Origin: a virus
Direction: 5' to 3' (one strand)
Length of the DNA stretch: 20,646 bases
Virus record (IMG/VR): IMGVR_UViG_3300027899_000087
Location: 1-20,646 of that record
Under the pieces are notes generated by a model. It did not search any database. It worked only from the letters and a program-made list of their open reading frames with translations, and had not been told where the DNA came from. This document shows positions 15,106 to 17,704 of the stretch, piece after piece. Numbering within the stretch: the stretch's first letter is position 1; the number at the start of each line of letters is the position of its first letter. A program made the translations under genes and the position numbers.

Positions 15106-15904
15106 CTCTCTCACCTCTTGATTTGCTAATTGCTAACTCAACTCTTTCTACTGCCGATAACTGTCTCATGCCTTTGGGTTCTTCAGGTGTCTGCCATAAC
15201 TCCGAAAAGCCTTTATTCGGCCCCAAGAATGTAGAAGCCATTTGGACATACTCAGAACCCAACTTACCAGTTATCGTCAAAAACTTGGTGTAACGATCTA
15301 TACCCCAGCAAATTTCCTCGTGGGTATGCCCTTCACGCAACCGTGCGTTGTATGCCTTCTCAGCATCTCCCCACTTCTGGCTGCCTCCTCTCTTTGGGTA
15401 TCTTTGACGAACTTCCAGAAATAAATTTGGTTCTTGTACTGTGTCGCTTGCGATACAAGTTAGATCCTTTCCTTGATCTTTTCCTTGATCCTTTCCTTGA
15501 TCCTTAGATCCCTTCCTTGATCCTAGATCCTCACACGAACGTTCGCGAGGATTCGAGAGGATTCGCGAATCTTCGGTGAATGCAGGTATTTTGCTTGCTG
15601 AAGGTTTATCAATCTTCTGATGTTTCAACCAGTTAGAGATTTGTATGTATGTATCATCTTCAACTGCATAACGCACTAAGCACTTCTCATGCTCAAGTTC
15701 GCTTAACCATTTGTCGATTAACTTTCCAGCGTCCAAATCATAGGGGTATAGAAGGCTCGCGAGCATTCGCGAATTCCCGCGAAGCCTCCCCGAATCATCT
15801 GCGAGAGTCCAAAGAAGAATGAAACAATACCGGCTTTCACGGCTTACCCTGCCCATAGATTCGGACTGAGGGAATTCAGGTTTAATAGTACGGATTCGTG
15901 CCAT
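15032..15904 (-). CDS. Replication initiator, O-like winged-helix protein, 290 aa
   Basis: The N-terminus MARIRTIKPEFPQSESMGRVS with YCFILLWTLADDSGRLRGN and LLYPYD is the standard winged-helix domain (about residues 1-100) of phage replication initiators. The middle (about 131-147) is a Lys-Asp-Gln-Gly tandem linker encoded by 12-bp direct repeats. The C-terminal domain (about 160-250; FLEVRQRYPKRGG, WGDAEKAYNARLREGHTHEEI, YVQMASTFLGPNKGF) is the family's second conserved part. The protein should bind iterons in its own gene, as lambda O does, and recruit the helicase loader encoded next. ATG 15904 is preceded by GGTGA. The 100-nt leader is structured. Confidence 0.88.
   Translation of the reverse strand: MARIRTIKPEFPQSESMGRVSRESRYCFILLWTLADDSGRLRGNSRMLASLLYPYDLDAGKLIDKWLSELEHEKCLVRYAVEDDTYIQISNWLKHQKIDKPSASKIPAFTEDSRILSNPRERSCEDLGSRKGSKDQGKDQGKDQGKDLTCIASDTVQEPNLFLEVRQRYPKRGGSQKWGDAEKAYNARLREGHTHEEICWGIDRYTKFLTITGKLGSEYVQMASTFLGPNKGFSELWQTPEEPKGMRQLSAVERVELAISKSRGERDERVVGEQSGTGFASLEELMRNVR
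15463..15532. repeat. 12-bp iterons in initiator gene, candidate replication origin
   Basis: On the plus strand, GATC(C/T)TTTCCTT occurs as three head-to-tail 12-bp units (starts 15463, 15475, 15487). A shortened GATCCTTA (15499) follows, then another unit GATCCCTTCCTT (15507) and two partial units GATCCTA and GATCCTC. The period is in frame and encodes KDQG repeats. Iterons in the middle of an O-type initiator gene are the classical layout of a lambdoid replication origin. Confidence 0.65.
15536..15571. repeat. Palindrome pair with TCGCGA cores beside iterons
   Basis: CGAACGTTCG (15536-15545) is a perfect 10-bp palindrome that runs into a TCGCGA (15543-15548). GATTCGCGAATC (15560-15571) is a perfect 12-bp palindrome with the same TCGCGA core (15563-15568). 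They adjoin the iterons and may be part of the origin. Confidence 0.55.
15755..15774. repeat. Second palindrome pair with TCGCGA cores
   Basis: GCTCGCGAGC (15755-15764) and ATTCGCGAAT (15765-15774) are two abutting perfect 10-bp palindromes, both centred on TCGCGA, within the initiator gene about 190 bp from the first pair. The shared core suggests one DNA-binding factor or a modification target. Confidence 0.55.
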
Positions 15905-15905
15905 A

Positions 15906-15996
15906 GTTCACCAATTACCAAATCACCTTAAAGAATCGCGGCGCGTAGGAAGGTGAGAGACCTACTGTCACAGGTGGATCAGACCTGCCAAGCCGC
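15906..15996 (-). ncRNA. Structured leader RNA of initiator gene (candidate cis-regulator)
   Basis: The only gap above 80 bp among the leftward genes. As minus-strand RNA it can form an outer stem GCGGC/GCCGC (15996-15992 with 15942-15938). That stem encloses two hairpins: CAGGT/ACCTG (15987-15983 with 15975-15971, 7-nt loop) and GTAGG/CCTAC (15965-15961 with 15949-15945, 11-nt loop). The second loop, UCUCUCACCUU, has a perfect 7-bp partner AAGGUGA at 15929-15923, making a pseudoknot. UCACC can also pair with the GGUGA (15912-15908) just before the initiator ATG. All pairings were read by eye. No known riboswitch class was recognised. Confidence 0.5.
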
Positions 15997-16005
15997 AACT
16001 GAAGC

Positions 16006-16665
16006 CTATTCTATCTCATTTGTGGCTGTCAACAACTTTCGCCACCGCCAAATAGCAGGTTTGCACTGGGAAAAATAATTATCAAAATCTTTTCCTAGAG
16101 TCCGTCTGCCGTAGTCATTCCTGTCAGTAGGCTCAATGTATAGGTCAAGCGTTAGCCCGGCTTCTGTAGCTTTACGCTCCATTTCCTCACGAGAATTTAC
16201 GGTGTATGCCAGCTCCTTGATTCGGTCATTACCGCCAATCATGTCAAATACAAACACAATTCCGTCAGGCTTCACTAACCGAGCCATTTCTTTAAGTGCT
16301 TTGGCTTGGTCGCAGTGGCCGATAGCAAACAAACATATTGCAGCATCAAACGATTTATCTGGTTCTGGAACCGATGTCATGTCGCAAATATGCTTTCTGG
16401 GATGGTCTATGTACGCCATCTGTTCAGGGCTTAAATTAACTAATGTAATGCGTATATCAGGTCTGAATTGCGACCAAACATAAGTCACAGTACCTACCCC
16501 GCAACCCATGTCAATCAAGTTGCAATCTTTAGGTAGATCAGCCCACAACAACATACGCCATAGGTGATGCAAATCGTTGTCACCAAAACGATAGGCTTGG
16601 AATATGGTTTCGCCTCGCTCTACTAATGCTTTAGTAGCTTTGGCAATTTCAGCTAAGTCGGTCAA
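16006..16665 (-). CDS. Class I SAM-dependent methyltransferase, 219 aa
   Basis: Motif I of the SAM-binding Rossmann fold is LIDMGCGVGTVT (about residues 50-61), followed by an acidic strand region. FDAAICLFAIGHCDQAKALKEMARLVKPDGIVFVFDM (split across about 108-145) is the post-motif typical of Methyltransf_11-type enzymes. There is no NPPY/DPPY motif of adenine or N4-cytosine DNA methylases and no PC motif of C5 enzymes, so DNA is not an obvious substrate; small molecules, RNA or protein are possible. It opens at TTG 16665 (no ATG is available after an in-frame stop at 16680) and overlaps the nuclease gene by 17 bp. Its role in the phage is unknown. Confidence 0.82.
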   Translation of the reverse strand: MTDLAEIAKATKALVERGETIFQAYRFGDNDLHHLWRMLLWADLPKDCNLIDMGCGVGTVTYVWSQFRPDIRITLVNLSPEQMAYIDHPRKHICDMTSVPEPDKSFDAAICLFAIGHCDQAKALKEMARLVKPDGIVFVFDMIGGNDRIKELAYTVNSREEMERKATEAGLTLDLYIEPTDRNDYGRRTLGKDFDNYFSQCKPAIWRWRKLLTATNEIE

Positions 16666-17128
16666 TTTGTATTTTTCTTAACTGGCTTTGATCCAGTGCG
16701 TAACCATCACCATGCCCGCCCAAATTACGGATATTCTCAGGCTTACAAAGTTCGTGCTTATATGCCCAACCAGCAAACGTGACAGCGTTGTCGTTCAGTA
16801 GGGCCAGCACATAAATGTCAACGTCAGGATTATCTTTAAGTCTACAAAGCAAGCGGCCATCAGCCCGGCGGGTTGTTTTAATGTCTATGCGCTTACCCTT
16901 TACCAGACAATCATAACTTCCCGATCGGGAATGCAGCCCTAAGTCGGGCCAAACGTTAAATGCCTGACAAAACGCTAATTCGCCTAAAATACCGTCAATA
17001 TCTGCATCCGCGCCTGATTGCGGGCCAACCTTGGCATCTTTGACATTTCCCGAACGGGAAACGAAAGTTCTGAACCCACCCCAGACCGAGGCAAGTAGTC
17101 TCAGATCGTGGGTGATAGGTATTTTCAT
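16649..17128 (-). CDS. PD-(D/E)XK nuclease-like protein, 159 aa
   Basis: A 159-aa protein with Glu50 in DGILGELAFCQAF, Asp73 in SGSYDCLV and Asp82-Ile-Lys84 in KRIDIKTTRR, the order E...D...(D/E)xK of the PD-(D/E)XK nuclease fold. YVLALLNDNAVTFAGWAYK gives later core strands. Phage proteins of this type are annotated as putative nucleases; their substrates are mostly unknown. It is coupled by ATGA (17125-17128) to the HTH gene upstream and overlaps the methyltransferase gene downstream by 17 bp, so all three are in one early leftward transcript. The fold is likely and the substrate unknown. Confidence 0.75.
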   Translation of the reverse strand: MKIPITHDLRLLASVWGGFRTFVSRSGNVKDAKVGPQSGADADIDGILGELAFCQAFNVWPDLGLHSRSGSYDCLVKGKRIDIKTTRRADGRLLCRLKDNPDVDIYVLALLNDNAVTFAGWAYKHELCKPENIRNLGGHGDGYALDQSQLRKIQIDRLS

Positions 17129-17313
17129 TGCTGACGGACAGATTCCGCTAACTGTGGATCAACTTGCAATTTGCCTTCGCTGATCTGCTGTAATTGCCAC
17201 TGGCGCAGTTCTGGCACTGCTTTCCACTGGGTAATGGCGGCTCTGGATACGCCGATCAGTTTGCTTAAATTGGCTGCGCTACCAGCCCATGCGATTGCTT
17301 CAAGTTTGGTCAT
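17125..17313 (-). CDS. Cro/YdaS-like helix-turn-helix regulator, 62 aa
   Basis: A 62-aa protein. The AWAGSAANLSKLIGVSRAAITQWKAVP segment (about residues 8-34) is a helix-turn-helix with the GS.A.LA..LGVS...I..WK pattern of Cro/YdaS/DicC-type DNA-binding proteins. It is followed by ELRQWQLQQISEGKLQVDP, the usual C-terminal strand-helix of this family. It is the first leftward gene, with AGGAGA 6 nt before ATG 17313, next to the divergent promoters. It probably binds operators in 17314-17428 and perhaps the duplicated site at 17630-17658. No CI-like partner lies in the window. Confidence 0.82.
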   Translation of the reverse strand: MTKLEAIAWAGSAANLSKLIGVSRAAITQWKAVPELRQWQLQQISEGKLQVDPQLAESVRQQ

Positions 17314-17332
17314 GTAAGTCTCCTTAACGTGC

Positions 17333-17361
17333 TACTTAGCGGACATTTTTGTCTTTGTCAA
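17333..17361 (-). promoter_or_regulatory. Leftward promoter, perfect -35
   Basis: On the minus strand TTGACA (17361-17356) is a perfect sigma-70 -35 box. A 17-nt spacer leads to TAAGTA (17338-17333), a poor -10, about 20 nt before the HTH gene start. The weak -10 suggests regulated use. An inverted repeat, GACA-TTTT-TGTC (17342-17353), lies in the spacer. Confidence 0.5.
17342..17353. promoter_or_regulatory. Inverted repeat in leftward promoter spacer (operator candidate)
   Basis: GACATTTTTGTC has perfect 4-bp arms GACA/TGTC around TTTT and lies between the -35 and -10 of the leftward promoter. This is an expected position for an autoregulatory operator of the Cro-like protein. It is short, so chance cannot be excluded. 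Confidence 0.35.
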
Positions 17362-17370
17362 CTAAAAAGG

Positions 17371-17399
17371 TTGCATATTTGGTTAAGCTGGATTAAATT
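17371..17399 (+). promoter_or_regulatory. Rightward promoter/operator, copy 1
   Basis: TTGCAT (17371-17376), a 17-nt spacer containing GTTAAGCTGG, and TAAATT (17394-17399) lie 30 nt before the first rightward gene. The same -35, spacer length and GTTAAGCTGG core recur at 17630-17658, which supports a shared regulated promoter. Confidence 0.65.
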
Positions 17400-17428
17400 C
17401 GGCTAAGTTAAACCACAGGAGCAACCAA

Positions 17429-17626
17429 ATGCACCCACAAATTGTTAGTGAATTACAGAACCAAATTTCTAGTTTAGAGGCTTGCGCAGATGCTACAGAG
17501 CGTACAGAACTGGCCGCCCGGCTTACTCTGGCCGCATCAGTAATGCGTAAAGCCATCCATATACTGTCCGCGCCAGTGCTTGAAAACGATGACATTCCAA
17601 TGTTTTTGCGTAAACAAGCAGAATAA
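17429..17626 (+). CDS. Small helical early protein, 65 aa
   Basis: The first rightward gene. ATG 17429 follows AGGAG with 7-nt spacing. The 65-aa product (MHPQIVSELQNQISSLEACAD...) appears wholly helical, with a probable coiled coil in residues 3-50 (ELQNQISSLEACADATERTE) and a short charged tail. No DNA-binding motif or membrane segment is visible. As an immediate-early type gene behind a regulated promoter it could act on host or phage regulation. No family is recognised and no function is assigned. Confidence 0.65.
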   Translation: MHPQIVSELQNQISSLEACADATERTELAARLTLAASVMRKAIHILSAPVLENDDIPMFLRKQAE

Positions 17627-17629
17627 TTG

Positions 17630-17658
17630 TTGCATACCCAGTTAAGCTGGGTTAATAT
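17630..17658 (+). promoter_or_regulatory. Rightward promoter/operator, copy 2
   Basis: TTGCAT (17630-17635), a 17-nt spacer and TAATAT (17653-17658) form a good sigma-70 promoter. The spacer holds CCCAG-TTAAG-CTGGG (17637-17651), an inverted repeat. The GTTAAGCTGG part equals that in copy 1. It begins right after the stop of the 65-aa gene and should drive the second rightward gene and the recombination operon. Confidence 0.7.
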
Positions 17659-17667
17659 GCTTCCACA

Positions 17668-17682
17668 CCAGCAGATTGCTGG
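17668..17682 (+). promoter_or_regulatory. Inverted repeat near transcript start, 5' UTR hairpin
   Basis: CCAGCA-GAT-TGCTGG has perfect 6-bp arms and a 3-nt spacer, about 10 bp after the -10 of promoter copy 2 and 22 bp before the next ATG. It may stabilise the 5' end of the mRNA or be a further operator (CCAGC/GCTGG resembles the CTGGG arm of the promoter repeat). Confidence 0.45.
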
Positions 17683-17704
17683 CAGAATTTACCGGAGAAA
17701 TAGG

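Follow-up and report, generated by a model that had tools for sequence, protein, structure and literature searches.

The int-alpA RNA (RF02996) is a relative of the leader element described here, and its authors reportedly proposed for it a role in trans. A three-stem junction with a loop/tail pseudoknot is also the architecture of the glnA and Downstream-peptide (glutamine) riboswitches. In phage T4, the leader pseudoknot of gene 32 is bound by the gene's own product, which controls translation (PMC3014915, PMC535899); according to a 2010 review, it may be the sole viral pseudoknot employed for translational autoregulation (PMC3014915). In the IncI/IncB plasmids (e.g. ColIb-P9), the leader of the initiator repZ/repA holds a pseudoknot switch together with an antisense RNA directed against its loop, according to references given in PMC10724649.

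The window analysed here is the whole of a 20,646-nucleotide stretch of viral DNA (IMG/VR record IMGVR_UViG_3300027899_000087). On its minus strand, a three-way junction with a 7-bp pseudoknot ends 18 nt upstream of the ATG of a replication initiator (table 1). The element resembles the T4 gene 32 and IncI systems in outline, but its architecture differs. As in T4, a phage replication gene has a leader pseudoknot; there, however, the pseudoknot is approximately 28 nt long and the gene's own product nucleates cooperative binding, whereas here a three-way junction is combined with two competing partners, and the leader is kept while the gene is swapped. With IncI repZ, as presented in the references above, it would share the use of a pseudoknot before a replication initiator as a translational switch; antisense RNA operates there, whereas a consensus scan of positions 15600-17700 revealed no promoter-like site here, and in Rfam the leader matched no known family of plasmid leaders. 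The glutamine riboswitches have other conserved letters, the leader does not match them in Rfam at E ≤ 5, and nitrogen-metabolism genes are absent. No Rfam riboswitch match was obtained in the window, and its gene content points to no ligand for a metabolite riboswitch. Positions 16649-17128 encode a protein of unknown function (phrog_18407) with 48% identity to a gene of Methylophilales phage MEP301, a likeness that hints at a betaproteobacterial host.

Table 1. The leader element and neighbouring genes in the window.
Feature	Positions	Strand	Basis or remark
Whole leader element, P1 to start codon	15902-16000	-	covariance-model match at 15902-16000
P1, 5' strand, AGUUGCGGC	15992-16000	-	pairs with 15942-15934
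J12, UUG	15989-15991	-	sequence
P2, 5' strand, GCAGGU	15983-15988	-	both sides altered at 4/6 pairs in L001
L2 loop, CUGAUCC	15976-15982	-	UGAUCC retained in L110 and L122 on differing stems
P2, 3' strand, ACCUGU	15970-15975	-	partner of 15988-15983
J23, GACA	15966-15969	-	GAAAA in branch B and int-alpA
P3, 5' strand, GUAGG	15961-15965	-	compensatory replacement in L087 and L440
L3 loop, UCUCUCACCUU	15950-15960	-	15956-15950 is the pseudoknot 5' strand
P3, 3' strand, CCUAC	15945-15949	-	partner of 15965-15961
P1, 3' strand, GCCGCGAUU	15934-15942	-	partner of 16000-15992
Tail AAGGUGA, pseudoknot 3' strand (L3 partner 1)	15923-15929	-	7 bp with 15956-15950
GGUGA in ribosome-binding region (L3 partner 2)	15908-15912	-	pairing and L3 match tests
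Replication initiation protein, 290 aa	15032-15904	-	phrog_16167, 4e-33; presumed controlled gene
SAM-dependent methyltransferase ORF, upstream of leader	16006-16665	-	not conserved alongside the element
Cro-like repressor, operon head	17125-17313	-	PF14549

A first-pass annotation of the letters had proposed three stems arranged as a three-way junction, a 7-bp pseudoknot between a loop and the 3' tail, and the GGUGA preceding the ATG as a second possible partner of that loop. P1, P2 and P3 were all found on the minus strand, the pseudoknot was located exactly at the two strands given in table 1, and the alternative pairing is present. The minimum-energy structure from P1 to the ATG is the three-way junction (−24.1 kcal/mol); another nested fold takes over when a few extra 5' bases are included, and the stability of the leader is not unusual compared with shuffles (z = +0.77). 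Folding energy alone is no proof, and it is covariation that carries the case. In five leaders, 99.2% of the cells were paired and both sides had changed at 12 of 25 pairs (0/500 shuffles as high; slid controls, 32-54%). The 12 distinct leaders finally available gave 99.6% of cells paired and changes on both sides at 16 of 20 pairs, including all five counted pairs of the pseudoknot helix, with slid controls at 33-47% and a covariation score reached by 0/500 shuffles; the rows counted were trimmed and structure-based, which somewhat favours the structure, and the shuffles and slides were applied to the same rows. The compensatory changes expected of homologous leaders were thus observed, and no frame is open throughout the leaders, which argues against a coding origin. 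An Rfam 15 scan of the window gave no match, a scan of positions 15800-16100 at E ≤ 5 nothing meaningful, and the window contains no tRNA.

Relatives fall into two branches. For the window's own branch (A), scanning IMG/VR with the window initiator yielded 80 loci, only the two closest of which, L001 and L002 (88-91% identical; on the same contigs as L082 and L083, respectively), display a like leader; the entire P2 hairpin of L001 is exchanged for another perfect hairpin. A further member, L087, found by scanning with a recombination nuclease gene, has GGGU/ACCC as P3 in place of GUAGG/CCUAC, and the gene after its leader is a different initiator, DUF1376 (PF07120). In L440, found with a degenerate pattern, the pseudoknot itself is exchanged (CCCGUCU/AGACGGG), a DUF1376 initiator again lies downstream and an unrelated gene upstream. 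The leader cores of L087 and L440 are identical at 34/34 positions, compared with approximately 71% identity in the downstream coding sequence, and upstream of the leader their likeness is at random level, the genes being unrelated.

Relatives of the upstream methyltransferase led only to the contig of L087, and named phage and plasmid collections contained no leader match. DUF1376 phages of Shewanella (X14), Vibrio and Acinetobacter have no leader, the initiator start overlapping or abutting the upstream gene. Exact patterns with a fixed P3 returned from IMG/VR the close relatives and two chance matches devoid of the other stems (L081, L084); pattern matches L166-L285, most of L345-L447 and genome matches L448-L450 were discarded as chance, their stems being unpaired, as was L451, in which the 18-nt P2 word falls inside a coding sequence of an unrelated phage. 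L086 (4440-4580, minus strand), from a phage closely related to that of the window, is without this leader; upstream of its phrog_26426-type initiator, UUGGCGU/ACGCCAA crosses a stem of approximately 17 bp (AACCUGAUAAG..AGUCC/GGACUGCUUAUCAGGUU) followed by seven T, a pseudoknot-like arrangement for which Rfam gave no meaningful match.

The second branch (B) emerged from covariance models. A model of the five close leaders recovered L110 (E 0.001 in 0.9 Mb); with L110 included it recovered L122 (also in L124), L109 and L112, and, enlarged again, L027 (1e-11), L106 (3e-6) and, weakly, L093 (0.06). The latter was retained on two grounds: a DUF1376 initiator follows it directly, and it possesses the L2 loop AAGUCAUGAG common to L027 and L106. 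Branch B stems comprise an outer GAAAC/GUUUC and an inner CGGC/GCCG (the inner one varied in L106 and L093), joined by J12 UA, J23 GAAAA and J31 CU. Self-complementary L2 loops are frequent in the window and its relatives (GAUC, UCAUGA, UAAUUA, AGCU), with a summed palindrome length at p = 0.006 against shuffles for just six loop types; such loops may possibly serve as RNA dimer contacts.

It is branch B that leads to int-alpA. In a permissive Rfam search, L112 matched RF02996 over its full length (31.1 bits, E 4e-5) and L106, L027 and L110 scored 32.2, 32.0 and 28.3 bits, all tested members remaining under the curated cut-off of 35.8 bits. Branch B aligns over the full model (1-71/71) with P1, P2 and P3 in model order; the window and L002 gave no match at E ≤ 10. 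Reciprocally, model R3, built from branches A and B without int-alpA, recovered 10 of 45 int-alpA loci exactly in place (best E 1e-4). Order of stems, three-way junction, junction letters (J12 UA, J23 GAAAA, J31 CU) and the L3/tail match are the same in int-alpA and branch B, and CUAG...CGAAAAG...CCUG is retained in the latter; the window's branch differs, with J12 UUG, J23 GACA and J31 GC/GU (CUUG...GACAG...CGC). The phage branches also differ in preceding replication genes in a cro operon, the element lying between cro-operon genes and the replication gene rather than near int and alpA, as the name of the family implies. These comparisons indicate that the window leader is a diverged branch related to the int-alpA RNA via the branch B models; the curated RF02996 does not include it, both the score cut-off and the location near int/alpA setting it apart. 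The initial impression that the RNA belonged to no described class is consequently only partly right: the window's own branch falls below detection, but branch B has its sub-threshold match, and covariance models connect the window's branch with B.

RF02996 matched 37 of 321 Gammaproteobacteria genomes and exceeded its cut-off in 36, whereas R3 under strict filters found no match in 369 genomes of this class, which indicates that the phage branches are uncommon there. The int-alpA RNAs (L459-L503) occur in about one in nine of the sampled Gammaproteobacteria genomes, with up to four copies per genome, and precede many unrelated ORFs of unknown function.

What follows the RNA is variable. The downstream genes are of the window initiator type, DUF1376 primosomal proteins or a third initiator type (phrog_26426), along with HNH and GIY-YIG-like ORFs, and in the bacterial int-alpA loci unrelated ORFs. 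The element is not bound to one protein, as it can be followed by any of three unrelated families of replication initiator or by an endonuclease ORF, and the idea that it was specific to the initiator has to be abandoned. Autoregulation by the downstream replication protein, in the manner of T4 gp32 on its own leader pseudoknot, has this phage precedent in its favour (PMC3014915, PMC535899); nevertheless, the same core stands before the three initiator families, the endonuclease ORFs and the unrelated bacterial ORFs, and since the downstream protein changes family, control by that protein is very improbable. The HNH and GIY-YIG-like ORFs sit exactly between leader and next genes (L027, 2591-2998; L109, from 7517 downwards, minus strand), giving the impression of an insertion behind the ribosome site, whose control they would have captured.

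By contrast with this turnover of genes, the spacing is constant: the end of the pseudoknot lies 13-20 nt from the start codon in 12/12 phage leaders and 13-30 nt (median 20) in the int-alpA loci, 38 of 45 of which possess an ORF starting at that spacing, with at least 100 codons in 33. Judging from the usual 30S footprint, the pseudoknot would lie within reach of a subunit positioned at the start codon. A function at the DNA level, for example as a replication origin or as a site of single-strand initiation, might be suspected from the adjoining initiator gene, but it would hardly account for the G-U pairs used in P1, P2 and P3, for the strict position relative to the start codon, for the co-variation of L3 with the ribosome site described below, or for the non-replication ORFs that also follow; we deem it extremely unlikely.

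The main new point of this work is that L3 has two partners with which it co-varies: the tail of the pseudoknot and, next to it, the ribosome-binding region. Among ten representative leaders, L3 matches its own tail at −8.53 kcal/mol (permuted, −5.19) and its own ribosome-binding region at −7.81 (permuted, −4.86), each with p = 5e-5, and permutations within subfamilies gave p = 0.0013 for the tail and p = 0.0006 for the ribosome site, values that ignore relatedness and are hence optimistic. Tails and ribosome-binding regions are both purine-rich, which inflates raw complementarity, and the permutations control for base make-up; likewise, the effect could be trivial if any Shine–Dalgarno (SD)-like word sufficed, and the permutations use the ribosome sites of other members. 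L3 pairs best with its own tail, as in L440, where it does so at −11.6 kcal/mol and with other tails at −1.6 to −2.2. With the ribosome site, L3 is weakly complementary in L110 (−2.6) and modestly so (approx. −6) in L002, L112 and L027.

The same holds in bacterial loci. For 31 distinct int-alpA loops, the ribosome-side duplex energy is −8.30 for own sites and −6.43 for permuted ones (z = −6.1), and the longest word complementary to the ribosome side averages 5.35 versus 4.02 (z = +8.3). The direct repeat between tail and ribosome site reaches z = 7.4 in these loci, where the tail test is partly circular, the tail end being set by the L3 match, a circularity from which the ribosome-site test is free. 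Non-SD-like words occur in two copies each in L500 (GTGAGAG) and L501 (CAAGGTGCG, a 10-nt complement), and L498 and L502 possess the non-SD-like TACGA, in two copies in L498. The int-alpA ribosome site is held in a small hairpin (mean spacer energy −5.16; shuffled, −2.39) that is absent from branch A, and L3 would thus meet it there as a loop-loop contact.

These data bear on two further explanations. A trans-acting small RNA, cut or terminated and pairing through L3 with other mRNAs, would agree with the Rfam type line of int-alpA ('Gene; sRNA', a further difference from the leader as understood here), with the U-rich stretch 3' of P1 in branch B and int-alpA, and with an L3 that is anti-SD-like in many members. 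We nevertheless consider it unlikely: L3 fits the ribosome site of the adjacent ORF better than those of other members, the distance of 13-30 nt is fixed, with a following ORF in most int-alpA loci, and the U-run of branch A is only 3-4 long. An early-operon antitermination element acting on RNA polymerase, like lambda nut or HK022 put, is very unlikely. Cis-acting antiterminator RNAs such as put are known (PMC9378689), and several branch B elements (L110, L122, L109, L112, L027) come directly after a Cro-like gene, i.e. at the place of lambda nutR; however, the branch A element is several genes past cro, no boxA word lies near the element, L3 co-varies with the ribosome site, and the start-codon spacing, kept before unrelated first genes, is better explained by translation.

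We regard as the probable reading a cis-acting translational leader, a diverged relative of int-alpA, in which L3 would form two mutually exclusive pseudoknots. The proposal of a cis-regulatory RNA is upheld by conservation, placement in cis, compensatory changes and the dual-partner loop, and translational control is its most likely mode. Junction, pseudoknot, the match and co-variation of L3 with the ribosome site, fixed spacing and independence from the downstream gene are the parts of this reading backed by sequence. The three-way junction would present L3 so that it is free to form either pseudoknot. In the ON state, L3 would pair with the tail just 3' of P1, leaving the ribosome-binding region free; in the OFF state, it would pair with the second copy of the word, in the ribosome-binding region between tail and start codon, and presumably block 30S binding. 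The two pairings have similar computed energies, as expected for a switch. As the tail is transcribed first, the default state may be ON, and something binding the conserved junction could shift the balance; the conservation of the junction letters points to a bound factor or ligand. In phages, the leader would set the timing or dosage of the replication operon's first gene; in bacterial int-alpA loci, it would control the gene following the RNA.

A broader view, which we advance only tentatively and hold to be somewhat less probable than its negation, unites int-alpA with its phage relatives in a single, widespread family: translational switches, carried by mobile elements, that sense a ligand or factor ('two copies, one loop'). 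The complement of the loop would be written twice, as decoy tail and as ribosome site, and the junction would sense a signal, from host or phage, by which replication or mobilization of the element is started.

Returning to the translational leader, int-alpA, though catalogued among free small RNAs, is probably a switch built in ahead of the gene that follows it. If true, an orphan class typed as sRNA would gain a rule of location, just before a start codon, and int-alpA would gain both a mechanism and a wider range, in phage replication operons as well as bacterial genomes. Leader pseudoknots known to control phage replication genes are very few, and the element would enlarge their number; a platform with one word in two copies, decoy and ribosome site, would moreover be a compact arrangement of general interest.
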